Assembly: GCA_030612625.1 (NCBI GenBank)
Contig: JAUWNN010000004.1
Coordinates: forward strand, 1-36,493
Direction of reading: 5' to 3'
Source: Caldifarciminota bacterium
Lineage (GTDB): Bacteria > Hydrothermota > Tepidihabitantia > Tepidihabitantales > Tepidihabitantaceae
DNA length: 36,493 nucleotides
Both the position numbers and the translations under genes were made by a program. The notes below the pieces were generated by a model, which was not told where the DNA came from, made no database searches, and saw only the letters and a program-made list of their open reading frames with translations. Within the stretch, counting starts at the first letter, position 1; every line of letters begins with the position of its first letter. Positions 2,818-22,962 of the stretch are shown here, in pieces.

Positions 2818-3171
2818 ATGGATGAGAATACGTTCAAGAGAAGGACCAAGGGACTCGGACTTCAAGCAATTCGGCTTGTGCGAGCACTACCCAGAACCCG
2901 GGCCGCTGATGTGATTGGCCGGCAGTTGCTGCGTTCGGCGACTTCTGTCGGAGCTAACTACCGCGCCTCCTGCCGGGCGAAATCAGTAAGGGACATGATT
3001 GCCAAGTTGGGGATTGTGGAAGAAGAGGCTGATGAATCGGTTTACTGGATGGAGTTACTGGTAGAAAGCGGTATCGTGCCGAAGAGGGAAGTTGATGAGC
3101 TCATAATAGAGGCTAGCGAGATACTCGCGATGGTTGTCGCGTCAATCAAAACTCTCAAGAAGCGCACGTAG
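2818..3171 (+). CDS. Four-helix-bundle protein (S23/IVP-like family)
   Basis: QAIRLVRALPRTRAADVIGRQLLRSATSVGANYRASCRAKS... FIxKLGIVEEEADESVYWMELL-type pattern. Confidence 0.85.
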   Translation: MDENTFKRRTKGLGLQAIRLVRALPRTRAADVIGRQLLRSATSVGANYRASCRAKSVRDMIAKLGIVEEEADESVYWMELLVESGIVPKREVDELIIEASEILAMVVASIKTLKKRT

Positions 3172-3233
3172 CTAATCCGCAATCCAGAATTGGAAATCGC
3201 AAATCCACTGGTTTCAGTCAATCGGCAGAACGG

Positions 3234-4136
3234 CTACTGCGGGCCTTTCCACACAAAAGCGCCGGTCTTGTCGACATAGCCCCAGTCCGGGCCGGTCTCG
3301 ACCCGGGCCAAGCCGTTGGTGAACATTCCGGCCCGGTCGAACTGCGGCTCGATTACCATCTCCCCGGCCTTGTTGATGAAGCCCCAGGAAGCATTCTCAT
3401 TTGCGACCGGTGCCAGGCCTTCGGAGAATCGGAACGCATCAGTGTACAGCGGTTCAATCACGACATTCCCGGCCTTGTCAACAAAGCCCCACATTCCGTT
3501 TACCCTTACCGGTGCCAGGCCTTCGGAGAATCCGTGGCTCCAGTCATACTGCGGCTCCACCACCCATTCTCCGGCAGTGTCAATAAAACCCCATTTGCCG
3601 CCCATCTCCACCACCGCGGCGCCCAGCTTATCTGAAAAACCTTCTACCCGGTAGAACTTGGGTTCGATGACCATCTTACCCGACTTGTCAATGAAGCCCC
3701 ATTTGCCGTCAACTTCCACATCAGCCAGGCCTTCGGAGAAGTCATATGCCATCTCGAACTGCGGCTCGATAACAGTTTTCCCGGAAACGTCGATATAGCC
3801 CCACTTGCCCTTTCGGCTCACCCTGACCAGCCCTTCGGAAAACCCCCCGGCGGCATCATACAACGTATCGATAACCATTGTGCCCGACTCATCAATGAAC
3901 CCCCATTTGCCGCCGGCAACTCCGCCAAGCGCAACCGGTGCCATTCCTTCAGAAAAACTCCCGGCCATGTCAAACTGAGGCTCGATAGCCACTTCTCCGT
4001 TCTGGTCAATGTACCCGCACTTGCCTTTTTCAACCAGCAGAAACAGACCGGCCTGACTCTCTGGCTCTTCAGGCTGAGACCAGGAAATACCGGCAAGCAC
4101 AGCCACACCGACTAAGCATCCAACAACTCTTTTCAT
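3234..4136 (-). CDS. WG-repeat protein with predicted signal peptide
   Basis: Start MKRVVGCLVGVAVLAGISWSQ, then repeated KWGFIDxSGxxVIEPxFDxAxxFSEGLAPV units. Confidence 0.88.
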   Translation of the reverse strand: MKRVVGCLVGVAVLAGISWSQPEEPESQAGLFLLVEKGKCGYIDQNGEVAIEPQFDMAGSFSEGMAPVALGGVAGGKWGFIDESGTMVIDTLYDAAGGFSEGLVRVSRKGKWGYIDVSGKTVIEPQFEMAYDFSEGLADVEVDGKWGFIDKSGKMVIEPKFYRVEGFSDKLGAAVVEMGGKWGFIDTAGEWVVEPQYDWSHGFSEGLAPVRVNGMWGFVDKAGNVVIEPLYTDAFRFSEGLAPVANENASWGFINKAGEMVIEPQFDRAGMFTNGLARVETGPDWGYVDKTGAFVWKGPQ

Positions 4137-7100: not shown

Positions 7101-7513
7101 CGGACGCAGAGCCCGCAGAGCAGGCAATCCTCGTTCTTCGGCTTGATCCTCGGCTTCCCGACCCCCATTTCCCCGGCAAGACGCTTGACCTCTTCGGAAT
7201 CCGGGCACCGCGCCAGCAGCAATTCCACCATGACCTTGCGGGTCTGCTTCACGCGCTGAGTGTCAGTCTCAACGACAAGCCCGTCCTGGGCCGGATAGGT
7301 ACATGATGCGTGAATGGCCGCCGGGCCGCCCTTCTGGCTCACTTCGACCAGGCAGAGCCGGCAGGCACCATAGGCCGGCAGCGCCTTGTGATAGCACAGG
7401 GTCGGTATCTTCACACCGACCTTGCCTGCCGCCTGGAGTATCGAACTGCCCTGTTCGACCTCGACCTGTTTGCCGTTGATTGTCAGGCTCACCATACTGT
7501 TTTCGTTGCTCAT
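4190..7513 (-). CDS. NuoG-like N-terminal [2Fe-2S]/[4Fe-4S] domain fused to HdrA; first HdrA module lacks its N-terminal Rossmann segment, second module complete
   Basis: N-term LCYHKALPAYGACRLCLVEVSQ...SCTYPAQDGLVV, DCLLCGLCVRVCRD, CQTCGACFSVCP, then HdrA segment FDEGLVERSAIYIAYPQAVPNYATIDAEHC...VVTSIEFERILAASGP...IQCVGSRDD; later VIGGGLAGMTAAL and C-terminal CAGCGLCVATCP/CKGCGNCAAICP. Confidence 0.88.
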   Translation of the reverse strand: MSNENSMVSLTINGKQVEVEQGSSILQAAGKVGVKIPTLCYHKALPAYGACRLCLVEVSQKGGPAAIHASCTYPAQDGLVVETDTQRVKQTRKVMVELLLARCPDSEEVKRLAGEMGVGKPRIKPKNEDCLLCGLCVRVCRDRMGKGAIGFTGRGDKRLVQPAFDVQSDVCQTCGACFSVCPAKCIKCEEITHNKPVPILSEFDEGLVERSAIYIAYPQAVPNYATIDAEHCIHLQTGECQICKEFCESDAIDFDQKEQQLTFDVGAVIVADGAEKFNPSLKSEFGYGKCRNVVTSIEFERILAASGPFAGHVQRPYDGKVPKRIAWIQCVGSRDDMEDRKYCSSVCCMYAIKEAIIAKEHVKGVEPTIFFMDIRAHGKDFDAFYNRAKDQHGVRFVRSRVGKVLEVPETGNLLVYYTTESNPRQLCEEFDMVVLSVGLEPRQANAVLADKLDVKLNKYRFFKTSTFSPVETSRPGIFVCGPACGPKDIPETVMEASGAAAAAEGVVAEARGTAIVPKTYPEERDVMGEAPRIGVFVCHCGINIGSVVDVPGVVEFARELPGVVYAENNLFTCSQDTQQKITSIIEEQRLNRVVVASCSPRTHEPLFQETLREAGLNPCLFEMANIRDQCSWIHGHVPEQATVKAKTLVQMAVAKAGLLEPLHSVMLPMCQKGLVIGGGLAGMTAALSIADQGFDAILVEREGELGGNLRNLYHTIEGEDIQEHLETMVQEIENHPRIKVYKSATIEQVEGYIGDYKTTIEMAKGSRVQGFKGSSELESSNPQTFSFEHGIVIVATGAEESRPKEYLYGEDERVITQTELEKRMQDPQAHKLARLKNVVMIQCVGSRDNEHPYCSRVCCQEAVKNALKLKELSPKVNIYVLYRDMRTYGFLEEHYQRARDNGAIFVRYDEEQKPVVDKDGDKLKVRMRDNLLETDLVVNPDLVVLAPAIVPHEDAADISQMLKVPLNENNFFLEAHVKLRPVDFATEGVFLAGMAHSPKNIPEAIAQAKAAAARAGTILSKDTYEASATTSVVDEDVCAGCGLCVATCPYNAPELVAIETKIVSHINEALCKGCGNCAAICPAGAISHLGFKSEQTAAMMNAALRAI
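5191..5222. repeat. TTGAACCC x4 tandem array inside the HdrA-fusion CDS
   Basis: Exact (TTGAACCC)4, translated in frame on the minus strand as part of KGSRVQGFKGSSELESS. Confidence 0.9.
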
Positions 7514-7989
7514 CTGTCTTGTCCGTGGTTGGGTGTTTTCCGCATCTCGTCGGTATCCAGCCTGAAGCTGGTTTCGCCGTCCCGATGCTCGTATACGAAG
7601 TGTATCTCCGGATGACCGGCAATCAGAGTCACCAGGGTTTCTTCCATGTCGCCGAGAGGCTTACGGTCGATATGGCTGTACTGGAACGAAGCCCGTATTC
7701 TCGTACCCCTGCCGACTTCGGAGCTGACTTCGATACCACCGCCGGTTTCCCGGGCCGCCTGTGCCAGCAGGGGCAGGCCCAGGCCCACCCGGCGCGTAGT
7801 CCTGGTCGTATAGAACGGGTCAAGCACTTTCTTGACAGTCTCCTGGTCCATTCCGCTGCCGTTGTCTTCTATCTCAATACTGAGCAGGTCCTTCTCAGTG
7901 TCCTCATTGATGCCGATCCTGATCTCCGAGGCCCCGGCCATGACCGAGTTCTCGACTACGTCAAGAACATGCAAGGATAGATCTTCCAT
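7510..7989 (-). CDS. HATPase_c (histidine-kinase-like ATPase) domain protein
   Basis: DVVENSVMAGASEIRIGI...IEIEDNGSGMDQETVKKVLDPFYTTR...VGLGLPLLAQAARETGGGIEVSSEVGRGT (N, G1 and G2 box pattern). Confidence 0.85.
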   Translation of the reverse strand: MEDLSLHVLDVVENSVMAGASEIRIGINEDTEKDLLSIEIEDNGSGMDQETVKKVLDPFYTTRTTRRVGLGLPLLAQAARETGGGIEVSSEVGRGTRIRASFQYSHIDRKPLGDMEETLVTLIAGHPEIHFVYEHRDGETSFRLDTDEMRKTPNHGQDR

Positions 7990-8750: not shown

Positions 8751-9098
8751 TCACTTCGTATTCCCGCGTATCCCGAGTTCGCAGAGTCTCCCTGCAATCT
8801 CAAAGGCCTGCAACCCGGTCAGCATGACCGGGATGTTCTCCTGCTCCGCTTTTGCCAGGACCTTCTGCTCCGGCTTTCTTCCGTTCACGACGACAATCCC
8901 GGCAAGCTCTTTCAGGGAAGCCACGGCTATGATGTTCTGATGGATCTGCATTGTAACCCAGACATTGCCCTCCCGGGAGTTGGCCATCACATCGCTGAGC
9001 AGATCGCTCGCATACCCGCCGCTCACATCTCTGTCAAGGTCGCTGGCCGGAGTAGCCACTTCCAGGTTCAGTTTTTCTACGATCTCTTTGAGTTTCAT
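8751..9098 (-). CDS. DRTGG-domain protein
   Basis: MKLKEIVEKLNLEVATPASDLDRDVSGGYASDLLSDVMANSREGNVWVTMQIHQNIIAVASLKELAGIVVVNGRKPEQKVLAKAEQENIPVMLT. Confidence 0.8.
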   Translation of the reverse strand: MKLKEIVEKLNLEVATPASDLDRDVSGGYASDLLSDVMANSREGNVWVTMQIHQNIIAVASLKELAGIVVVNGRKPEQKVLAKAEQENIPVMLTGLQAFEIAGRLCELGIRGNTK

Positions 9099-10018
9099 GA
9101 TTTCCCATTCAGGTAGACAACGGCCTCAAGCGTCGTCCCTTTGCCGACCTCTGAAACCAGGTTCATCTCATCGGTGCAGTTCTTGATATTGCACAATCCC
9201 ATTCCGGCCCCGAACCCCATTTCCCGTATCCAGTCAGGGGCGGTAGAAAAGCTGGGCTGCATCGCCTGCTCGATGTCGGCAATCCCGGGCCCGGAATCCG
9301 ACGCGGTAATTGTAATCCGCTCCGAACAGACCGAGATCGAAAGCTGCCCCCCGTCCGTGAACACAATGATGTTTATCTCCGCCTCGAATGCGGCAATCGC
9401 TATGCGGCGCACTATCTCGGGCTGGATACCGAGCCGATGCAGTGCCTTCTTGAGTTCGCTTGCCGCTTGGCCGGCCCGGTCGAAATCCTTGCCTGTGATG
9501 TCGTATCTGAGGACCAGGTTCGTCTTGTCCGCGACGATGTCCTCGAAGATGTGACTTGCCCGGTACCGGTGTATCTCTTCCTCGTGGTACTCGACCTCCA
9601 GTTTCTTCAGCAGGCACTTGATGATATCGCCTTTGGTGAGAATGCCGACCAGCTTTCTCCCGTTCCGTTCGATCACCGGGAAGCGACCAAACCCATACTG
9701 GTCGAATTTCTTGACAGCATGGACCAGCGGCTCGTCGGCGTACAGCGTTACCGGATCCCTGGTCATCTTCTGCTCGATGAGAACGTCCATTTCGCCCTGG
9801 GCAAGGCACTTGATGAAATCCTCAATGCTGATCAGCCCAACCACCTTCCCTTTGTCCACCACCGGAGATCCGGAGAAACCCTTGTCCCGCATCATGTCTC
9901 TCAGGTCATGAATCGCCTGCTTCGGCCTCACCGTAATCACGTCCGCGACCATCGCATCCCTGACCCTGAGCTCATAGGTCAGCTCCTGGATCTTGGTGAA
10001 ACTTCTATCCTCGGTCAT
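9095..10018 (-). CDS. CBS-pair protein fused to RsbW-type HATPase domain
   Basis: Two CBS motifs (RVRDAMVADVITVRPKQAI; IEQKMTRDPVTLYADEPL...GRFPVIERNGRKLVGILTKGDI) then IAIAAFEAEINIIVF...ITASDSGPGIADIEQAM...GFGAGMGLCNIKNCTDEM. Confidence 0.87.
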   Translation of the reverse strand: MTEDRSFTKIQELTYELRVRDAMVADVITVRPKQAIHDLRDMMRDKGFSGSPVVDKGKVVGLISIEDFIKCLAQGEMDVLIEQKMTRDPVTLYADEPLVHAVKKFDQYGFGRFPVIERNGRKLVGILTKGDIIKCLLKKLEVEYHEEEIHRYRASHIFEDIVADKTNLVLRYDITGKDFDRAGQAASELKKALHRLGIQPEIVRRIAIAAFEAEINIIVFTDGGQLSISVCSERITITASDSGPGIADIEQAMQPSFSTAPDWIREMGFGAGMGLCNIKNCTDEMNLVSEVGKGTTLEAVVYLNGKS

Positions 10019-12334: not shown

Positions 12335-12718
12335 TCACGGCACCCTCTCACTCCCGAAAGCCAGCGCATATTCCTTGACGATTTCACCTGAAAGGACGTG
12401 CTTGGCGAATATCTCCTTCGCCTTGTCCGGAGTCAAGTCCACGTATTTCACCGGCGGTTGGTCCTGAACTTCGACCGTTATCATCGGCTCACGGCTGCAC
12501 AGACCGGCACAACTTGAAGTGGTCAGGATGACGTCTTTGATGTTCCGTTCCTCGATTTCCTTCATTAACGCGCTCATGATCGCTCGCGCTCCGGAAGCTA
12601 TCCCGCAAGTGCCCATGTGGACAATGACCTTTGCACGACCGGTCCCTTCACGAAGGAGCATTGTCCTTTTCACCTTTTCAGTAATCTTCGCCAAGTCCTC
12701 AGGCTTCAGTTTTGACAT
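12335..12718 (-). CDS. Thioredoxin-like [2Fe-2S] ferredoxin
   Basis: [73 protein letters not shown]. Confidence 0.87.
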
Positions 12719-13661
12719 TCCCCGCCTCCTTGTAGCTTCTAAGCAGCTTGGGGATTTGAGATATCCGGAAATGGCCGTGCAGGTCCTCGTTCACCACCAC
12801 AACCGGAGCCTGGCCGCAGCATCCGAAACAGGATATGGTCTCAAGCCCGAACGTCAGGTCCTCAGTGGTGTTCCCCACTTTCATGCCAAGCGCTCTCTCA
12901 AAAGCTTCAAGAATCCTGTTGCCGCCTTTTATGTAGCAGGCCGTTCCCATGCAGACTTTGACTGTGTATTCGCCCCTGGGCTTCAGGCTGAACGCGTTGT
13001 AGAAAGTCGCTATCTGGTAAACCAAGCTCAGGGGCATATCAAGTTCCTCGGAGACGTAGCGCAGTACGTGTTCCGGGAGATAGGAGTAGCTGATGTTGAT
13101 ATCGTGCAAGGCCGGCAGCAGCGCACCCTCTTTGTCCTTATACTCCTCGATAATGCTCCGCATCCTCTTCAGGTCGTCAGGTTCGAGCTTCACCTCGACC
13201 TTCTCCTGGTCGAGGTAGACCGCCTTTGTCACCGGGCAATTCTCCATGCACAGCCCGCAGCCGGTGCATTTATCCTCGTCAACATAGCGAGGTTTCTTCT
13301 TCACTGTCACCACGAAGTTGCCCGGAGTTCCGGTCAGTTCCGCAAGTTCGGCATTGGTGATGAGTTCAATATTGGGGTGTCTACCACAATCAACCAGCTT
13401 GGGCGAAACGATGCACATCGCGCAGTCGTTCGTCGGAAACGTCTTGTCAAGCTGCGCCATGGTCCCGCCGATAGCTGGGGTGTTCTCGACCAGGTAGACC
13501 TTGAAACCCGAGTCGGCCAGGTCCAACGAAGACTGGATCCCGGCTATCCCGGCACCAACAACAAGCACGGCACCTACAGGAGAGGGGGGTGAGGCGTCGG
13601 ACGGCACCTGCGAAGACGCAGAGCCAGGATTCGAGGGTTCCAGGGTTCCGCTACTCGTCAT
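12699..13661 (-). CDS. Fusion of the HdrA N-terminal (FAD Rossmann plus 4Fe-4S) segment with a NuoE-like [2Fe-2S] domain
   Basis: [65 protein letters not shown]...[14 protein letters not shown], then [45 protein letters not shown]...[11 protein letters not shown]...[16 protein letters not shown]. Confidence 0.9.
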
Positions 13662-13682: not shown

Positions 13683-14081
13683 CTACTCTTCCTTCAGAAG
13701 CTTGCGGACATGTTTCACTAATTCCATGGCCTCGATCGGTTTGTCTACGAAATCGTCAACAGGCAGCCAATCCGCCTCTCCGGCCGCGCCGCCGAAATCA
13801 AACGGGTACTTCTTGTCAACCGCGGTGAGCATCAGAATCGGAATCTGCTTGGTTCTGTCGTCGGTCTTGACCTTCCGGCAGATGTCAAACCCGGAATCCA
13901 GCCGCGCCATCATCACGTCCAGGATCATGAGGTCAGGCAGCTCCTTCTGCAGTTCTTCGAAGCACTCCTTAGGATTCATCGCCCGTCTCGTCTTATATCC
14001 AAAGCTTTCAAGGACATTCGCCGTTGCCTCGAGAAAACTCGGGTCGTCGTCCACAAGCAGTATCGTCTTCTGGTCAGCCAT
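13683..14081 (-). CDS. Stand-alone response-regulator receiver protein
   Basis: MADQKTILLVDDDPSFLEATANVLESFGYKTRRAMNPKECFEELQKELPDLMILDVMM...ILMLTAVD...VDDFVDKPIEAMELVKHVRKLL; phosphoacceptor Asp in LMILDVMM. Confidence 0.92.
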   Translation of the reverse strand: MADQKTILLVDDDPSFLEATANVLESFGYKTRRAMNPKECFEELQKELPDLMILDVMMARLDSGFDICRKVKTDDRTKQIPILMLTAVDKKYPFDFGGAAGEADWLPVDDFVDKPIEAMELVKHVRKLLKEE

Positions 14082-16101
14082 TTTGGGTTCCTCCTGCTCT
14101 GTCAGAGCCGCTTCCGGCCGGCGCGCAGTTGCGAATGCGCAGGGTGAAAGCGGCAAATCTTCTCACTTCCCTGTCATCCTGGTCCACATCATACTGGTCC
14201 GGGTTCTCCCGGAGTGTTCTATGGGTTATGAACTTGCCGTCGAGGATCCGCCCGGCGTCTACTCCGACGCTGCCGTTGTGCATCCCGGCGATCTTCCTCA
14301 CCAGAAACAACCCGAGCCCGGTTCCGCCGATGCCGAGGGTATCGAATCGGGCGTACTCGTCGAACACCGCTTCGAACTTGTCCTCAGGAATACCGATACC
14401 CTCGTTGGTGATTGCGAACTCGAACCCGTCGTTCCATTTCTTCAGCGTCGAGCGGATTGTCGTATTCGCGGTGCCGTACTTGATCGCGTTCTGCACCAGG
14501 TTGTTGAGCGCCACACGCACCAACCGTTTGTCGCAGATCACCTCGAGACCGTCGCGCTGGTCGCAGATGAACTCCATCCCCTTCACCCTCAGCGAGGACT
14601 TGAGGCGCAGTGCAACCTCATCGACGATGTCTCCAATGACGGCAACGCGGGGACCGAATGCGAGCCGGCCGGTTCGCACCTTTGAGGACGCAAGATAATT
14701 CCTGACCATATCCTGCATCAGGTTCAGGCTGCTGAGCGCACCCAGCAGCATTCGGTCGTGCTTTTCCTTATCGAGTCTCCGGGCTACCTCAGGGTCTGTG
14801 AGCGCGCTTATGTTCATGACAACGGTCCCCAAAGTGGCGCTGAGTTCGTGACTCACAAAGCCGATAACCCAGGTCAAGTGGCGATTCAGTTTCTCGCATT
14901 CACTGCACAGGTCATCCTCGTCGGAGAGACCGGCGAGCTTCGTCTTCAGTTCCTTCATCTCTCCGTGCGGCTCTTCGGGGGGAAGGGATGACTCGGGCCT
15001 GTCCTGCCTGCTCGCGGCCCTCGCCTTCTTCTTCTCAGCAACCGACCCAATCAGGGACAGCACGCCTTTCTTGTCTCCTTCGGACAGGACCGCAGGCTCG
15101 ATGTACCCCTGGTCCACCGCTTCGGTGAAGACCTTCTTGGCCAGGGTTGTTCTGATTACAGCGGTGGTGTATCCATCCGGGGAGCCGAGACCGCCCACTG
15201 AGATGTCCGCGAAGTCATTGGCGAAATCCCGGCAGGCAAGACACGCCGGTCTGGCGATATCCTCGATCTCGTCAAACGGCACGCGAATGGTCACGCCGGA
15301 CTTCATCTCCAGTCTGAAGTCCTCCTTGACGTTGATCTTCAGGATGTCCTCAGGCCTTATGACGTATTTCTTCACGAACCCTTTTCCCATGAGATCCTCG
15401 AACGCGAAACACTGCATGCAGAACAGCCCGACAGTGAAATGAATTGCATCTGCCGGCAGTATGTTCAGGACCTGCATCTTGCGAACCGCCATAATCTGGC
15501 ACGGGGTACCGACAACCGCCAATTTGGTGGTCCGCTTCGGGCCGAACATCCTCACCACCGGAAGAATCGGCACGTAAGTGGAATACTTCTCGCCGATTCC
15601 TTCGAGATGCGACGATTCGGAAAACTGCGACCCGGCCGCCTGGATAAGCCTTTCGCGTGTGGTGGCGATTTCCGGCTCGCGGTTGAACAACCCGGTCTTC
15701 TTCGCGACTATCGCACCGTCAATGGTCTTGCTCTCAAGCATGTAGGCGAGCAACGCAGTGACCACGCCGCCGTCGGTGGCAACTTCCGTTATCCCGGCAT
15801 CGGTTGCCCGCGCGGAAACGACATCCCGGAAGACACCAACCGGAGCTGACCATCCGAATTTCTCCTTGACGTCTTCATTGAGCTCCTGGGTCTGGGGACA
15901 GATGAGATAGCATATTCCACACCTGAAACACTTGTCCGGGTCCACGTATCGGGGCAGATTGTCGACACAGTAGCACATCTCGATTGCCCCGATCTGGTGG
16001 GCGGTGCAGAAGGAAACGCACGCACCGCACTTATTGCACAGGCCCTTTTCTATAACGTCCTTGAGAAGGTCGTCAAAACTCAACTTGGTGCTTTGCTTCA
16101 T
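14074..16101 (-). CDS. FrhB-like Fe-S domain fused to a histidine kinase
   Basis: N-term LCNKCGACVSFC, CFRCGICYLICPQ, ATDGGVVTALLAYML, LAVVGTPCQIMAVRKM, CLACRDFANDFADISVGGLGSPDG; C-term VIGFVSHELSATLGTVVMNISAL (H box), RVALNNLVQNAIKYG (N box), NEGIGIPEDKFEAVFDEYARF (G1), GGTGLGLFLVRKIAGMHNGSVGV (G2). Confidence 0.93.
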   Translation of the reverse strand: MKQSTKLSFDDLLKDVIEKGLCNKCGACVSFCTAHQIGAIEMCYCVDNLPRYVDPDKCFRCGICYLICPQTQELNEDVKEKFGWSAPVGVFRDVVSARATDAGITEVATDGGVVTALLAYMLESKTIDGAIVAKKTGLFNREPEIATTRERLIQAAGSQFSESSHLEGIGEKYSTYVPILPVVRMFGPKRTTKLAVVGTPCQIMAVRKMQVLNILPADAIHFTVGLFCMQCFAFEDLMGKGFVKKYVIRPEDILKINVKEDFRLEMKSGVTIRVPFDEIEDIARPACLACRDFANDFADISVGGLGSPDGYTTAVIRTTLAKKVFTEAVDQGYIEPAVLSEGDKKGVLSLIGSVAEKKKARAASRQDRPESSLPPEEPHGEMKELKTKLAGLSDEDDLCSECEKLNRHLTWVIGFVSHELSATLGTVVMNISALTDPEVARRLDKEKHDRMLLGALSSLNLMQDMVRNYLASSKVRTGRLAFGPRVAVIGDIVDEVALRLKSSLRVKGMEFICDQRDGLEVICDKRLVRVALNNLVQNAIKYGTANTTIRSTLKKWNDGFEFAITNEGIGIPEDKFEAVFDEYARFDTLGIGGTGLGLFLVRKIAGMHNGSVGVDAGRILDGKFITHRTLRENPDQYDVDQDDREVRRFAAFTLRIRNCAPAGSGSDRAGGTQNG

Positions 16102-16129: not shown

Positions 16130-16597
16130 TCATTTCGCGCTAAACCTGCTCTGGACCATGGACTTGATTTTCTTCTTCTGCTCGGCACCGGGCTTGATCA
16201 GGTATTCCACCAGATTGCACCTCAAGTCCTGGGCAAACCGGTCGAGCTCCTCCATCTGCTCAAGTCGTTCCCTGGGCGCGAACCCTTCTTCGACCGCCAT
16301 CTCCCGCAGCACACCCATGACGCCGGCGAATTTCACATTCTGGGGGCAATGCGCATAGCAGACATAGCATCTGGCGCACATCCAGATGATATCCGAAGCC
16401 AGAACTTCTTTCCGCATACCCAGAATAGCCATCCGGATAATTTTCCTCGGGTCATAAGCCTCGTTGACTTCTGCAACCGGGCAGCTCGCGGTGCAGGTAC
16501 CACACGAGAAACAGCGTTTGAAATTCTCGGCGCCGGGTCGCGCGGCGATTTCGTACTTGAACTTCGTATCAAGGTCACTCAGGTTGACTTCATCCAT
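16130..16597 (-). CDS. hdrC: HdrC-like 2x[4Fe-4S] protein
   Basis: NFKRCFSCGTCTASCPVAEVNEAYDPRKIIRMAILGMRKEVLASDIIWMCARCYVCYAHCPQNVKFAGVMGVLREMA. Confidence 0.88.
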   Translation of the reverse strand: MDEVNLSDLDTKFKYEIAARPGAENFKRCFSCGTCTASCPVAEVNEAYDPRKIIRMAILGMRKEVLASDIIWMCARCYVCYAHCPQNVKFAGVMGVLREMAVEEGFAPRERLEQMEELDRFAQDLRCNLVEYLIKPGAEQKKKIKSMVQSRFSAK

Positions 16598-16608
16598 TCT
16601 GCCTCCTG

Positions 16609-17439
16609 TCAATACTGCTCCGGCAGTTCCTGCAGCTCCGCATAGGAGAATACCGGCCCGTCGGCACACACGTACTTGGACCCGATATTGCACCTGCCGC
16701 ATTTCCCAATCCCGCATTTCATTCTTCTTTCGAGCGAGGTATAGATTCTCTCCGGGGGGAATCCGAGGTCAAACAGAACCGGCAAGGTATACTTGATCAT
16801 CACCGGCGGGCCGCACACTACAGCCCAGGTATCCTTGGGGCTGGGCGCCACTTCCTTCGTCACAGTCGGGACAAAACCCACCCGCTTGTCCCAGCCGGAC
16901 ACTTCCTTGTCGATGGTGAGATGCAGATTCAGGTCGTCCCGCTTCTCCCATTCGGCCAGTTCGTCGCGATAGAGGAGCAGACCAGGCCTTCGGGCTCCAT
17001 AGATAACTGTGATATCAGCGAAATCCTTCCGGTGCGCGAACATGTAGACCGCGAGTGACCGGAGTGTAGTGAATGCAAACCCGCCGCTGATAATCACCAC
17101 GTTCTGGCCTTTGAACTTCTCCACCGGATAGTGATTCCCGAGTGGCCCCCGCAGGCCGATTGTCTCGCCCTGCTTCAGATAGTGAAGTGCGGTTGTGACG
17201 ACCCCGACCCGGTTAACAGTGAATCTCAGGAATCCCTTCTCGGTCGGCGAAGACGCTATTCCGAACGGGGCTTCGCCTTTTCCCAGGACGGACAGTTGGC
17301 AGAACTGACCGGGCAGATAGTCAAACGCCTGTTTCTCGTCGCAGAAACTCAGGTCGAACGTTCTCAGGGTTTTGTCGTCCGACTCTTCCCGGATTTTGTC
17401 TACGGTCACCGGGATGGGAATGTAGCAGTTATCCGGCAT
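16609..17439 (-). CDS. FAD/NAD(P)-binding electron-transfer subunit, AsrB / sulfhydrogenase gamma (HydG)-like
   Basis: FDYLPGQFCQLSVLGKGEAPFGIASSPTEKGFLRFTVNRVG...GLRGPLGNHYPVEKFKGQNVVIISGG...VVCGPPVMIKYTLPVLFDLGFPPERIYTSLERRMKCGIGKCGRCNIGSKYVCADGPVFSY. Confidence 0.9.
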   Translation of the reverse strand: MPDNCYIPIPVTVDKIREESDDKTLRTFDLSFCDEKQAFDYLPGQFCQLSVLGKGEAPFGIASSPTEKGFLRFTVNRVGVVTTALHYLKQGETIGLRGPLGNHYPVEKFKGQNVVIISGGFAFTTLRSLAVYMFAHRKDFADITVIYGARRPGLLLYRDELAEWEKRDDLNLHLTIDKEVSGWDKRVGFVPTVTKEVAPSPKDTWAVVCGPPVMIKYTLPVLFDLGFPPERIYTSLERRMKCGIGKCGRCNIGSKYVCADGPVFSYAELQELPEQY

Positions 17440-18454
17440 CCATAAATCTCTTGATTACGTAGCGAATGTCAAGATTGACCGGGCAACTCCGGACGCATCT
17501 GCCGCATCCCACGCATGCAATCTCGCCGAACACGTCAACGAAGTAGTTGAACTTGTGCATCACCCGCTGCCGGATTCGTTTTTTCCCGGTCGGTCTCGGG
17601 TTGTGACCTGATGCCTCTTTCGTGAACTGGGGAGCCATGCACGTATCCCAGATTCTGATTCGCCTGCCCCGGCTCGTGCCCGGCATCTTCTCGTCCTGGA
17701 TGTCAAAACAGTGGCAGGTCGGACACAAATACGCACAGACTGCACAGGAAAGGCACTTCCCGGCAAGCTCGTCCCACAACGAGCTGTCCCACGACTTGTC
17801 CAGAACCGCCTTGATGGAGGAAATGTCAACCTTGTCTTCCATCGATGATTCGGCGTGCTCCCTGACGCCGGCCGCTTTGCTCAGGTCATCGTCGGTGGGC
17901 TTCCTGAACGGAATCTCGTCTGAACTCTCCAGGAAACCTCTTCCTTTCTCGCTGCAGGACTCCACCAGCAGGGCATCGCCGATATCAGTGAGCGCGATGT
18001 CTGAGCCCTGCTTGCTGAACGGACCCAGGTCCAACCAGTTGCAGAAGCAACCAGCCCGCGGCGTATTGCAGCCCACACTGATTATGAGCGCGTTCTCGTA
18101 TCGCCGGGTCCAGCAGGAATCGTTGTATTTCCCGGTGCCGAAGACCTTGTCCAGCATCAGCAGGCTCCTTGCATCGCACGGCCTGATACCGAGGACCGCA
18201 ATCGGCTTGTCCGGACCCGACGGAGTCTCTGTCTTCCCGTTCTCATACGTGAGTATCGTCTCAACCTGGGGAAAGAAAATGCCTTTGGCCGACTCATCCG
18301 TGTTGGAGTCCAATTTCAGTGCATCGGCTGACTCTACTTCGGCAAACCTGGTCAAGCCATTGGCTTCAACCGGACCGAACAGACGGTACTCTGAGAGCAA
18401 CGCAGCAACGAACTTGTCAAGCCGCTTCTTGTCCAGCTTGAGGATATCACTCAC
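17429..18454 (-). CDS. 4Fe-4S protein, AsrA / sulfhydrogenase beta (HydB)-like
   Basis: GIFFPQVETILTYENG...IAVLGIRPCDARSLLMLDKVFGTGKYNDSCWTRRYENALIISVGCNTPRAGCFCNWLDLGP...CLSCAVCAYLCPTCHCFDIQDE...CVGCGRCVRSCPVNLDIR. Confidence 0.9.
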   Translation of the reverse strand: MSDILKLDKKRLDKFVAALLSEYRLFGPVEANGLTRFAEVESADALKLDSNTDESAKGIFFPQVETILTYENGKTETPSGPDKPIAVLGIRPCDARSLLMLDKVFGTGKYNDSCWTRRYENALIISVGCNTPRAGCFCNWLDLGPFSKQGSDIALTDIGDALLVESCSEKGRGFLESSDEIPFRKPTDDDLSKAAGVREHAESSMEDKVDISSIKAVLDKSWDSSLWDELAGKCLSCAVCAYLCPTCHCFDIQDEKMPGTSRGRRIRIWDTCMAPQFTKEASGHNPRPTGKKRIRQRVMHKFNYFVDVFGEIACVGCGRCVRSCPVNLDIRYVIKRFMDAG

Positions 18455-19414: not shown

Positions 19415-19891
19415 TCAGTACTTCGTCTCTGTAGGCTCAAGGTTCCTCACCAGTTTCCTGGCAGGACCGAGCTTCTTCACGTCCTCGGTGACTTTGGTGA
19501 CGACCTGGGCGAATTTCTCGCCTTCACCGGCCGACACCCAGGAAAACTGAACCCGACCCGGCTCCAGGCCCATGAACTCCAGCAGCGTCTTCAATACGGC
19601 GAACTTCCTGCGCGCCACGTAGTTGCCCGAGATGTAATGGCAATCTCCGGGATGGCAGCCTGAAACCAGAACCCCGTCAAACCCGTTCTGAAGGCACTTG
19701 AGAATGAATATCGGGTTGACTCTACCTGAGCAGGGAATCCTGACAACCCGGATATTGGGAGGGTACTGAATCCTTGAAACCCCGGCAAGGTCTGCCCCGG
19801 CGTACGAGCACCAGTTGCACAGGAATGCCAGTATCTTGGGCTGCCAGTCCTTGTGCCGTCCGATGGTGTTTTCCACTTTCGCTTCAATCAT
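19415..19891 (-). CDS. mvhD: MvhD-type hydrogenase iron-sulfur subunit
   Basis: [81 protein letters not shown]. Confidence 0.93.
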   Translation of the reverse strand: MIEAKVENTIGRHKDWQPKILAFLCNWCSYAGADLAGVSRIQYPPNIRVVRIPCSGRVNPIFILKCLQNGFDGVLVSGCHPGDCHYISGNYVARRKFAVLKTLLEFMGLEPGRVQFSWVSAGEGEKFAQVVTKVTEDVKKLGPARKLVRNLEPTETKY

Positions 19892-22800
19892 GTCGTTATT
19901 GCGCTGACCGCTTCGAAAATCTGGTCGTCCGTGAAACCCTTCAGGTTGATAGCACCGGACCGACACGACGCCGCACAGGCACCACAACCCTTGCACAACG
20001 CTTCATTCACTTCGGCGACCGTTTTCACAACCTTCGACCCCATCGTCATCTCTTTCAACTCGACTGCGGCATAGGCACAAGCCTTGACACAAACACCACA
20101 ACCAGTGCATCTATCAGGGTTGACCCAGGATACGGTACCTTCGGCCTCAATGACCTTCCTGCTCAACACGCCCAATGCCCTTGCTGCCGCGGCTTTTGCC
20201 TGGGTTATCGACTCATCAATGTTCTTCGGAGAATGAGCAAGTCCGCACATGAAAACCCCGTCGGTGGCGAAGTCGACCGGCCTCAGCTTCATGTGGGCCT
20301 CCAGGAAGAAGCCCTCTTTGTTCAACGGCACCTTGAGCATCTTTGCCAATTGCTCATTCTCTTTCGGGGCATCCATGGCGGCCGAAAGCACAACAAGGTC
20401 TGCTTCGATCACAATCTTCTTGTCGAGCAGGAAATCCACCAGCTTGACCTTCAGTTTGCTGTCCGGGTCGCTTTTGTCCACCGGCTCGAGTTCGGGCTTG
20501 TGGTCCAGGTCATACCTCTCGAAGACCACACCCAAGTCCCTTGCCTGGCCGTAGTACTTCTCGGCCAGACCGTAGGTCCTGATGTCCCGGTACAACACAT
20601 AGACGTCGGTGCCGGGCCGCATCTTCTTCATCAACGTGGCATTCTTGATGGCCTGGCCACAACATACCCGGCTGCAATAGAGCCTCTCCCCTTCCCGGGA
20701 GCCGACACACTGAATCATGACCACGGTCTTGCATCTCGGGAGGTCGGCAATCCGCTTCTCAAGCTCAAGCTGGGTAATCACCCGCCGGCTCTTTCCGTAC
20801 AGGTACTCGGCAGGCTCTGACTCCCTGGCCCCGGTGGCAACGACTACGACGCCATGGTCGTACTCGACGCTCGGCTCTTTGCTCTTGGCTTCTGGTTTCT
20901 GGCTGTTGACTTCAAAGGTCGTCTTGAAATGCCCGATGTAGCCTTCGATGCTCTGCAGCCTGGCGTTCCTGTGGACGGTAATGAACTTGCTGTCTTCCAC
21001 CTTCAGGATAGTACTGTGCAGGAGCTCCCGGGGGTCCGCGCCGTTCAGTGTGTTGCGGATGCCGGCCAGATTCCCGCCGAGCTCGCTCTCTTTTTCCAGG
21101 AGACAGACTTCGTACCCGGCGTCAGCCATTGCCAGAGACGCAATCATGCCGGACAGCCCGCCGCCAACAACCACGGCCTTCGGGTTGATTTCAATCGGCA
21201 GTTTCTGAAGCGGAAACAGGTTCCTTGCTTTGGCAACGCCCATCTCCACCAGGTCCTTGACCTTGGCGGTTGCCAGCTCAGGCTCGTGCATGTGTGCCCA
21301 ACTGCACTGGTCCCTGATATTCGCCATCTCGAAGAGATACTGGTTCAGACCGGCCTCTCTGAGCGTCTCGCGGAACAGCGGCTCATGGGTCCTCGGGGTG
21401 CACGCGGCAACCAGAACCCGGTTCAGGTTATGCTCCCGGATTTTCTCTTTTATCGTATCCAGGCAGTCCTGGGAACAGGCATAGATGACGTCCTCGGTGT
21501 ATTCTACATTGGGCAAAGTCCCGGCAAATCCGGCGACATCCTTGACATCCACTACGCCGGCGATGTTGATCCCGCAGTGGCAGACAAACACGCCAATCCG
21601 CGGCCGCTCGCCCACAACGTCTTTCTCCTCGGGGAACTCCTTTTTCGAGACCTTCTCCTGTCTCTCAAGGGCCAGGAACCGGGCGCAGCCTGCCACAGCA
21701 CCCGAAGCGGACATCACCGATTCCGGGATGTCTTTGGGCCCGTTCGCAGCGCCGCAGGCGAATATGCCCGGCCTCACGGTATTGAGCGGCTCAAACGGAA
21801 CCGCCCGGCAGAACCCGTATTCGTCCAGCTTAACATCGACCTTGTCTGCAAGCTCAGCCATATCCTCACGCGGCTCCAGGCCGACCGAGAGCACAACCAG
21901 GTCGAAAACCTCGCTGTCCCGCTTGCCGTACTCCCGGGTGAAGTGCAGCCTCAGGTTGCCGTCGTCAGCAGGCGTGACTTTTGCGACTCTCGCCCTTGTG
22001 AACTCAACCCCGAACTGCGACTCAGCCCTCTCGTAGTACTTGTCAAAATCCTTGCCGAACGCCCTGATGTCCATGAAGAAAATGGTCGGCTCGATTCCCT
22101 TGCTGTGCTCCTTGGCAATGACCGCTTCCTTGATTGCGTACATGCAGCAGACCGAACTGCAGTAGTCGTGCTTCCTTTCCAGATCCCTTGAGCCGACGCA
22201 CTGGATGAACGCAACCCTCCCGGGCTCCTTCCCGTCCGACGGCCGCACAACGTGGCCCTTCTGAGGCCCGCTTGCCGAAAGCATCCGTTCGAACTCGATG
22301 GAGGTTACCACATTCGGATATGCCTTGTATCCGTACTGGCCATATCCGATAGGGTTATGGGGGTCGATCCCGGATGCCAGAACGACCGCGCCGCAATTCA
22401 GGTCAATGAACTTGTCTTTGTCCTTGAAGTTGATTGCGTCCGCTTCGCAGGCTTTCTCACACAGCTTGCACACCCCTTTGGTGAGCTGCAGGCAGTGCGC
22501 CGCGTCAATGACGTAGTTCGACGGGATGCTCTGGGCAAAGTACCGGTATATCGCTTTGCGCTGTCTCAGTTCCACATCAAACTCGTCGGCAACCTTGACC
22601 GGGCACTTCTCAGCACAGACCCCGCAGCCGACGCACTTGTCCGGGTCCACGTACCGGGCATGTTCCTTTATCCGGCAGTTGAAATCACCCGCCGTGCCTT
22701 CCACTGACACAAGCGACGAGCAGATGTGGAGCGTAATACCGGGATGCCGGGCGCACTCACTCATCTTCGGGGAAAGAATACAGATTGAACAATCATTCGT

Positions 22801-22962
22801 CGGAAAGGTCTTATCCAATTGGGGCATCCTGCCGCCGATTGACGGGGTCTGCTCAAGCAGATGAACGTCGGCACCCAGTTCGGCAAGGTCAAGCGCTGCC
22901 TGGATGCCCGCTATCCCGGCGCCGACTACCAGTACCGACTTGCTGGAACTCTTCACACTCAA
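19888..22962 (-). CDS. hdrA: Long two-module HdrA-like flavoprotein (1024 aa)
   Basis: [71 protein letters not shown], second VVGGGLSGMIASLAMADAGYEVCLLEKESELGGNL, C-terminal CTGCGVCVKACAYAAVEL / CKGCGACAASCRSGAI. Confidence 0.95.
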   Translation of the reverse strand: MSVKSSSKSVLVVGAGIAGIQAALDLAELGADVHLLEQTPSIGGRMPQLDKTFPTNDCSICILSPKMSECARHPGITLHICSSLVSVEGTAGDFNCRIKEHARYVDPDKCVGCGVCAEKCPVKVADEFDVELRQRKAIYRYFAQSIPSNYVIDAAHCLQLTKGVCKLCEKACEADAINFKDKDKFIDLNCGAVVLASGIDPHNPIGYGQYGYKAYPNVVTSIEFERMLSASGPQKGHVVRPSDGKEPGRVAFIQCVGSRDLERKHDYCSSVCCMYAIKEAVIAKEHSKGIEPTIFFMDIRAFGKDFDKYYERAESQFGVEFTRARVAKVTPADDGNLRLHFTREYGKRDSEVFDLVVLSVGLEPREDMAELADKVDVKLDEYGFCRAVPFEPLNTVRPGIFACGAANGPKDIPESVMSASGAVAGCARFLALERQEKVSKKEFPEEKDVVGERPRIGVFVCHCGINIAGVVDVKDVAGFAGTLPNVEYTEDVIYACSQDCLDTIKEKIREHNLNRVLVAACTPRTHEPLFRETLREAGLNQYLFEMANIRDQCSWAHMHEPELATAKVKDLVEMGVAKARNLFPLQKLPIEINPKAVVVGGGLSGMIASLAMADAGYEVCLLEKESELGGNLAGIRNTLNGADPRELLHSTILKVEDSKFITVHRNARLQSIEGYIGHFKTTFEVNSQKPEAKSKEPSVEYDHGVVVVATGARESEPAEYLYGKSRRVITQLELEKRIADLPRCKTVVMIQCVGSREGERLYCSRVCCGQAIKNATLMKKMRPGTDVYVLYRDIRTYGLAEKYYGQARDLGVVFERYDLDHKPELEPVDKSDPDSKLKVKLVDFLLDKKIVIEADLVVLSAAMDAPKENEQLAKMLKVPLNKEGFFLEAHMKLRPVDFATDGVFMCGLAHSPKNIDESITQAKAAAARALGVLSRKVIEAEGTVSWVNPDRCTGCGVCVKACAYAAVELKEMTMGSKVVKTVAEVNEALCKGCGACAASCRSGAINLKGFTDDQIFEAVSAITT
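20872..20915. repeat. Degenerate GGCTTCTGGTTTCTGGCTG-type repeat inside the hdrA CDS
   Basis: GCTCGGCTCTTTGCTCTTGGCTTCTGGTTTCTGGCTGTTGAC, encoding VNSQKPEAKSKEPSVEY. Confidence 0.55.

Follow-up and report, generated by a model that had tools for sequence, protein, structure and literature searches.

FrhB-type Fe-S/flavin subunits usually carry electrons in energy-converting enzymes, and to our knowledge the regulation of bifurcating Hdr-type complexes, in which such subunits occur, is little understood. Kinases that read redox state, such as NreB (a [4Fe-4S] cluster) or ArcB and RegB (thiols), sense with small domains or lone cysteines and not with the subunit of an enzyme complex. In the hydrogen-sensing regulatory hydrogenases HoxBC/HupUV, a kinase (HoxJ/HupT) takes its input from an enzyme homologue; these are separate proteins with a [NiFe] hydrogenase as input, whereas the protein described here would combine an FrhB input and a kinase in one polypeptide. 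Kinases fed by enzyme homologues are already known, but we found no published example with an FrhB-type subunit joined to the kinase: searches of openly accessible papers gave no description of this architecture, and a WOR-3 survey mentions mvhADG-hdrABC and no FrhB-kinase.

The solved structures closest to the FrhB part of this protein (P0001) in a PDB search are 8rja_E (2e-46) and 8riu_B (2.2e-40), with 3zfs_C also matched. FwdI and CODH zeta of Ca. Ethanoperedens (PDB 8RJA, 8RIU) are subunits of large metalloenzymes that combine a ferredoxin domain containing two clusters with an F420-reductase domain containing one cluster and FAD; CODH zeta is anchored by its N-terminal ferredoxin domain, which bridges electrons to the FAD, and dimerises through a short C-terminal extension (PMC11493965). 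P0001 resembles both in having a two-cluster ferredoxin domain followed by an FrhB core. However, FwdI and CODH zeta use F420 and lack a kinase, whereas the fusion has a kinase, expected to be dimeric, in the place of the dimerising end of CODH zeta and resides in hosts without detected F420 synthesis genes. FrhB of F420-reducing hydrogenase, Fsr and FpoF share the FrhB core and cluster ligands with P0001 but likewise lack a kinase, and P0001 scores below the curated cut-offs of the FrhB and FpoF families. The closest relatives of the fused domain are the free FrhB proteins that Caldifarciminota and Cloacimonadota encode within Hdr/AsrAB clusters (L009, L011, L052 and others); these occupy the same slot in several genomes but are unfused, lack Cys43/Cys45 and mostly have no neighboring kinase.

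The window, that is, the whole analysed stretch of 36,493 nucleotides from a Caldifarciminota bacterium, encodes P0001 and its response regulator P0002 at 13683-16101, the coordinates given in a first-pass annotation made from the sequence alone, with both genes on the minus strand (Table 1). That annotation had described a single reading frame leading from an FrhB-like N-terminus into a kinase, and the 675-residue frame indeed runs from 16101 to 14074 with zero internal stops; the motifs that it had quoted (GTPCQ, CLACRDFANDFADISVGG, FVSHEL, NLVQNAIKYG, NEGIGIP and GGTGLGL) were all located, and the 8-bp overlap between the kinase stop and the regulator start is exact (14074-14081).

Table 1. 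Features of the fusion locus and its neighbors, in window coordinates
Feature	Position	Strand	Evidence
FrhB-histidine kinase fusion, 675 aa (P0001)	14074..16101	-	open frame, Pfam, full-length and partial relatives
N-terminal ferredoxin domain (residues 1-83), two 4Fe-4S motifs	15853..16101	-	Fer4 match and Cys conservation
Cys43-x-Cys45 insertion specific to fusions	15967..15975	-	alignment, fused vs free FrhB
FrhB core (residues 84-366), predicted FAD site and one 4Fe-4S cluster	15004..15852	-	Pfam, PDB relatives, invariant Cys
Linker (residues 367-403), CxxC = Cys399/Cys402 at 14896-14907, abutting phosphoacceptor helix	14893..15003	-	alignments
DHp (dimerisation/phosphoacceptor) region, H-box FVSHELSATLG, His418	14632..14892, approximate	-	sequence motif and alignment
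HATPase_c catalytic domain, N-box, G1 NEGIGIP, G2 GGTGLGL	14242..14631, approximate	-	Pfam
C-terminal kinase extension (residues 621-675)	14077..14241	-	kept within kinase family
Receiver-only response regulator, 132 aa (P0002)	13683..14081	-	Response_reg 3.2e-20
HdrA-fragment/NuoE fusion protein, downstream of regulator	12699..13661	-	domain matches
HdrC-like 4Fe-4S subunit, directly upstream of fusion	16130..16660	-	domain matches
AsrB/sulfhydrogenase-gamma-like NAD(P)H-FAD subunit	16609..17439	-	domain matches
AsrA/sulfhydrogenase-beta-like Fe-S subunit	17429..18454	-	domain matches
HdrA-like protein, 1024 aa, same cluster	19888..22962	-	synteny with L017, L050, L057

P0001 consists of a two-cluster ferredoxin domain (cluster ligands Cys22/25/28/32 and Cys58/61/64/68), a complete FrhB core, a short linker and a histidine-kinase core. 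Pfam places it in the FrhB/FdhB family, with PF04422 followed by PF04432, both above the gathering score (FrhB_FdhB_N, residues 94-165, 1.4e-19, 70.4 bits against a cut-off of 22; FrhB_FdhB_C, residues 192-335, 3.7e-38, 131.2 bits against 23.3), and further matches Fer4 (residues 52-69) and HATPase_c (residues 524-614, 3.5e-17). Of the domain architecture proposed for verification at the outset, only HisKA (PF00512) went unmatched at E<=0.01. The H-box is nevertheless recognisable by eye, and NCBIfam HisKA-type kinases align across it; as judged from the sequence, the DHp helix is divergent with a clear H-box. With H-box, N-box, G1, G2 and HATPase_c all present, P0001 classifies as a histidine kinase. 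An AlphaFold2 model built from five sequences reached a pLDDT of 32 and was left unused.

Given that the window comes from a metagenome assembly of 303 contigs, joining of two genes by an assembly artefact or by chance read-through has to be considered. However, the fusion recurs in five genomes at 63-71% identity with the same neighbors. Six fused copies, three complete and three cut by contig ends, were identified in three phylum-level groups (that of the window, that of G148/G163, and Cloacimonadota). A relative from a WOR-3 genome (L017, Caldifarciminota) is 69% identical over all 675 residues, its genome G147 matching G142 place for place; G284 carries two copies, one complete (64%) and one cut; the copy of an unclassified bacterium (L018) covers residues 3-467 before the contig ends, and that of G163 is cut at residue 413 (the G284 and G163 copies were recovered by genome searches). 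In terms of loci, L017/L021 (69%) and L034/L047 (64%) are the complete relatives of P0001, and L018, L046 and L050 the partial ones; the complete fused sequences number only three, all metagenome-assembled. Alignment shows that homology among the fusions runs from the FrhB core through a variable linker into the kinase. Since independent assemblies carry the same architecture, a frameshift or stop between the two parts, named beforehand as the refuting outcome, and a chimera are ruled out, and we assign an artefact negligible probability. A pattern scan of genome contigs from 85,462 species yielded four loci and missed G284, so that the true spread of the fusion is probably larger.

In a phylogeny with 26 FrhB domains, all six from fusions group in a single clade with support of 100/99, which indicates one fusion event followed by descent; the fusion was probably spread between phyla by transfer. 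Free FrhB orthologues from related organisms are about 45-61% identical to the fused domain, and genome searches detected none at E<=1e-42 in any fusion-bearing genome, a claim limited by genome incompleteness; in G000, G142 and G284 a canonical (strong-matching) FrhB_C domain occurs only in fused form. Because the fusion-bearing genomes lack a free copy, the fused domain probably still performs the electron-transfer-subunit work of the complex. The cysteine pattern can be followed throughout: all 12 cluster-ligand cysteines are kept in the fusions, comprising the eight of the ferredoxin domain, which are present in 6/6 fusions, and the core-cluster residues Cys201, 228, 287 and 290, which are invariant in the 6 fused and 19 free sequences; seven of the eight ferredoxin-domain cysteines occur in every one of the 19 free proteins. 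The glycine-rich core motifs are also conserved in the FrhB alignment, and an FAD site is predicted. Cys43 and Cys45, in contrast, occur in all six fusions and in none of the 19 free FrhB proteins; together with Cys399/Cys402 of the linker they might act as a thiol- or metal-based switch. Among the free proteins, 8 of the 19, mostly from Cloacimonadota (L052, L059, L060 and others), have Gly or Asp in place of Cys61 of the second ferredoxin cluster, and because of this replacement one ferredoxin cluster may be lost or altered in them.

The connotation of F420 that comes with the name FrhB did not hold for these organisms. CofE was detected in 0/7 genomes searched and CofH in none of the seven above the cut-off, with control methanogens positive for both; F420 is therefore an unlikely electron partner. 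The models for the F420-reducing hydrogenase beta subunit, TIGR03289 and NF006807, scored below their curated cut-offs (167.6 vs 331.5 and 192.5 vs 269 bits).

The genomic setting bears out the Hdr/Mvh cluster reported initially: the hdr/mvh-type cluster is conserved, with synteny across the relatives. Its order in the window, in which some gene names were assigned from the sequence by eye, is hdrA - flpD - FrhB2 - asrA - asrB - hdrC - FrhB-HK - RR - hdrA/nuoE - thioredoxin-like 2Fe-2S gene - nuoF - DRTGG - CBS/HATPase - DRTGG - PHP, with NiFe hydrogenase genes located further upstream. G284 (L047) has the same order, and hdrC adjoins the fusion in L017, L046, L047 and L050; in L018 about 1.1 kb (2868-3990), containing a helix-turn-helix-like frame and repeats, separates the two. 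In G017, from the family of the window itself, the genes after asrA-asrB-hdrC are a free FrhB and hdrA, in that order, and in G242 a free FrhB precedes the hdrA/nuoE-nuoF-DRTGG run, in both cases with no kinase; the hdrC-hdrA slot is occupied by a free FrhB in G017 and G039. Accordingly, the fused protein takes the position of the free FrhB.

The HdrA/NuoE protein, which joins the Rossmann start and Fer4 of HdrA to a NuoE-type domain, is kept in Cloacimonadota and occurs in L047, in L052 and beside the distant kinase-regulator pairs of L013-L015. A protein with two CBS domains and a SpoIIAB-like HATPase (9095-10018, minus strand) is flanked by a pair of DRTGG-like proteins and by one PHP-like protein, with a second HATPase protein at 7510-7989; this block, conserved with nuoF, likely comprises regulators. 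Sulfur-transport and rhodanese genes lie between hdrC and the free FrhB in L052 (3961-6866), L053 and L054, hinting at a sulfur substrate for complexes of that type.

The kinase and its regulator make up a module of their own that is also encoded in the absence of FrhB, a point that goes beyond the first-pass annotation. Two Cloacimonadota (L048, L049) encode free kinases of approximately 292 residues that lack a sensor domain, are 59-62% identical to the fusion kinase and whose genes overlap by ATGA with a Fer4_11 protein gene within a complex-I/Ech-like operon; by eye, the free kinases begin near residue 382-386 of the fusion. The placement of the free Cloacimonadota kinases in the kinase tree (83/82) is compatible with either loss of FrhB or pre-fusion ancestry. 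All six fusions and the free Cloacimonadota kinases L019/L020 have a CxxC motif ahead of the H-box; RR-PAS-HK relatives lack this CxxC. The distant relatives L012-L016 have RR-HTH-PAS or RR N-termini, and their next gene, where seen, is hdrA-like or hdrA/nuoE; L012, L014 and L016 combine receiver, HTH_17, PAS and kinase beside a receiver-only regulator of the WLPV type. In L056 (6187-9591) separate genes for an RR-HisKA-HATPase kinase and for a protein with two receivers come after a free FrhB, making a second, independent FrhB-kinase adjacency. Free kinases beside Fe-S genes suggest that redox-complex-associated kinases form a broader class not yet described.

The regulator follows the fusion wherever the contig extends and is the more conserved partner, with identity of 83% between P0002 and its L017 counterpart, 76% for L047 and 76-77% for the free-kinase loci L048/L049, as against 53-63% for the kinase (76-83% for the regulator overall). 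Such conservation would fit a receiver with fixed protein contacts. A WLPV motif is invariant in the regulator family, which retains the phospho-acceptor Asp, acidic pair, Thr and Lys, so that the fusion is adjoined by a regulator with intact phosphorylation residues, as in a two-component system. P0002 lacks a DNA-binding domain and therefore probably acts by contacting another protein, which may be the complex or a component of a further relay.

We propose, with slightly better than even confidence, that P0001 is the FrhB-type electron-transfer subunit of a probably bifurcating Hdr/AsrAB complex, permanently fused with a soluble histidine kinase that relays its redox state or loading. The ferredoxin domain would dock on the complex and supply the flavin and cluster of FrhB with electrons, in the manner of FwdI/CODH zeta. 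The kinase dimer, coupled by the short linker, would then respond to the redox state or loading of this subunit (flavin, clusters and possibly the CxC/CxxC thiols) by autophosphorylating at His418 and passing the phosphate to the co-translated receiver P0002. The docked subunit envisaged in the first-pass annotation gains support from the free FrhB in the same slot, the lack of a free copy and relatives that are complex subunits; docking itself is predicted from orthology, operon slot and solved relatives, redox gating by FrhB is suggested by analogy, and autophosphorylation with phosphotransfer to P0002 is likewise presumed. Alternatively, the fused FrhB might have left the complex to sense soluble ferredoxin or NAD(P)H. 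Its relatives are modular redox units and the fused clade carries residues of its own (Cys43/45), but we consider this improbable, as the fusion retains the FrhB operon position and its host genomes have no free FrhB to fill the subunit slot.

A stronger contender, if still rather unlikely, is that FrhB only transfers electrons and anchors the kinase, with the kinase taking its signal from another source, such as nucleotide levels or the CxxC linker, and P0002 acting locally on the complex. Since free kinases of the same family lack FrhB, this domain need not be the kinase input: the closest ones (59-62%) have no sensor domain yet retain the CxxC and the same regulator, whose excess conservation over the kinase is expected for fixed contacts. 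However, those free kinases adjoin an Fe-S subunit gene, a hint that such subunits give the input, and the fusion-specific cysteines suggest that FrhB was altered upon fusion. We regard as very unlikely a C-terminal part that has abandoned phosphorylation for a role as a dimerisation or ATP-binding module, akin to the dimerising extension of CODH zeta (PMC11493965). The unmatched HisKA and the Asn or Ser in G1 would agree with such degeneration, but the His, N-box and G2 and the regulator Asp, Thr and Lys are conserved among relatives from several phyla, and the kinase boxes are otherwise intact in the complete relatives. The G1 Asp of histidine kinases normally contacts adenine, and Asn at this site is known from some active CusS/CopS-type kinases. 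The NEGIGIP sequence, flagged early as an oddity, does contain Asn, which is shared by 9/10 members of the kinase family (Ser in L048) and is thus a family trait, not decay of the P0001 gene; this answers the concern in part.

A further possibility, doubtful at present, is that a functioning catalytic subunit of an electron-bifurcating complex is at the same time the sensor kinase. The fused FrhB would then take its redox state from the turnover of the complex and directly gate the phosphorylation of a receiver, which in turn would feed back on the complex. If the proposed relay is true, the fused kinase would provide a concrete, testable route for the redox state of an enzyme to drive signaling, and cells of three little-known phyla of bacteria could be informed of that state by the enzyme itself.
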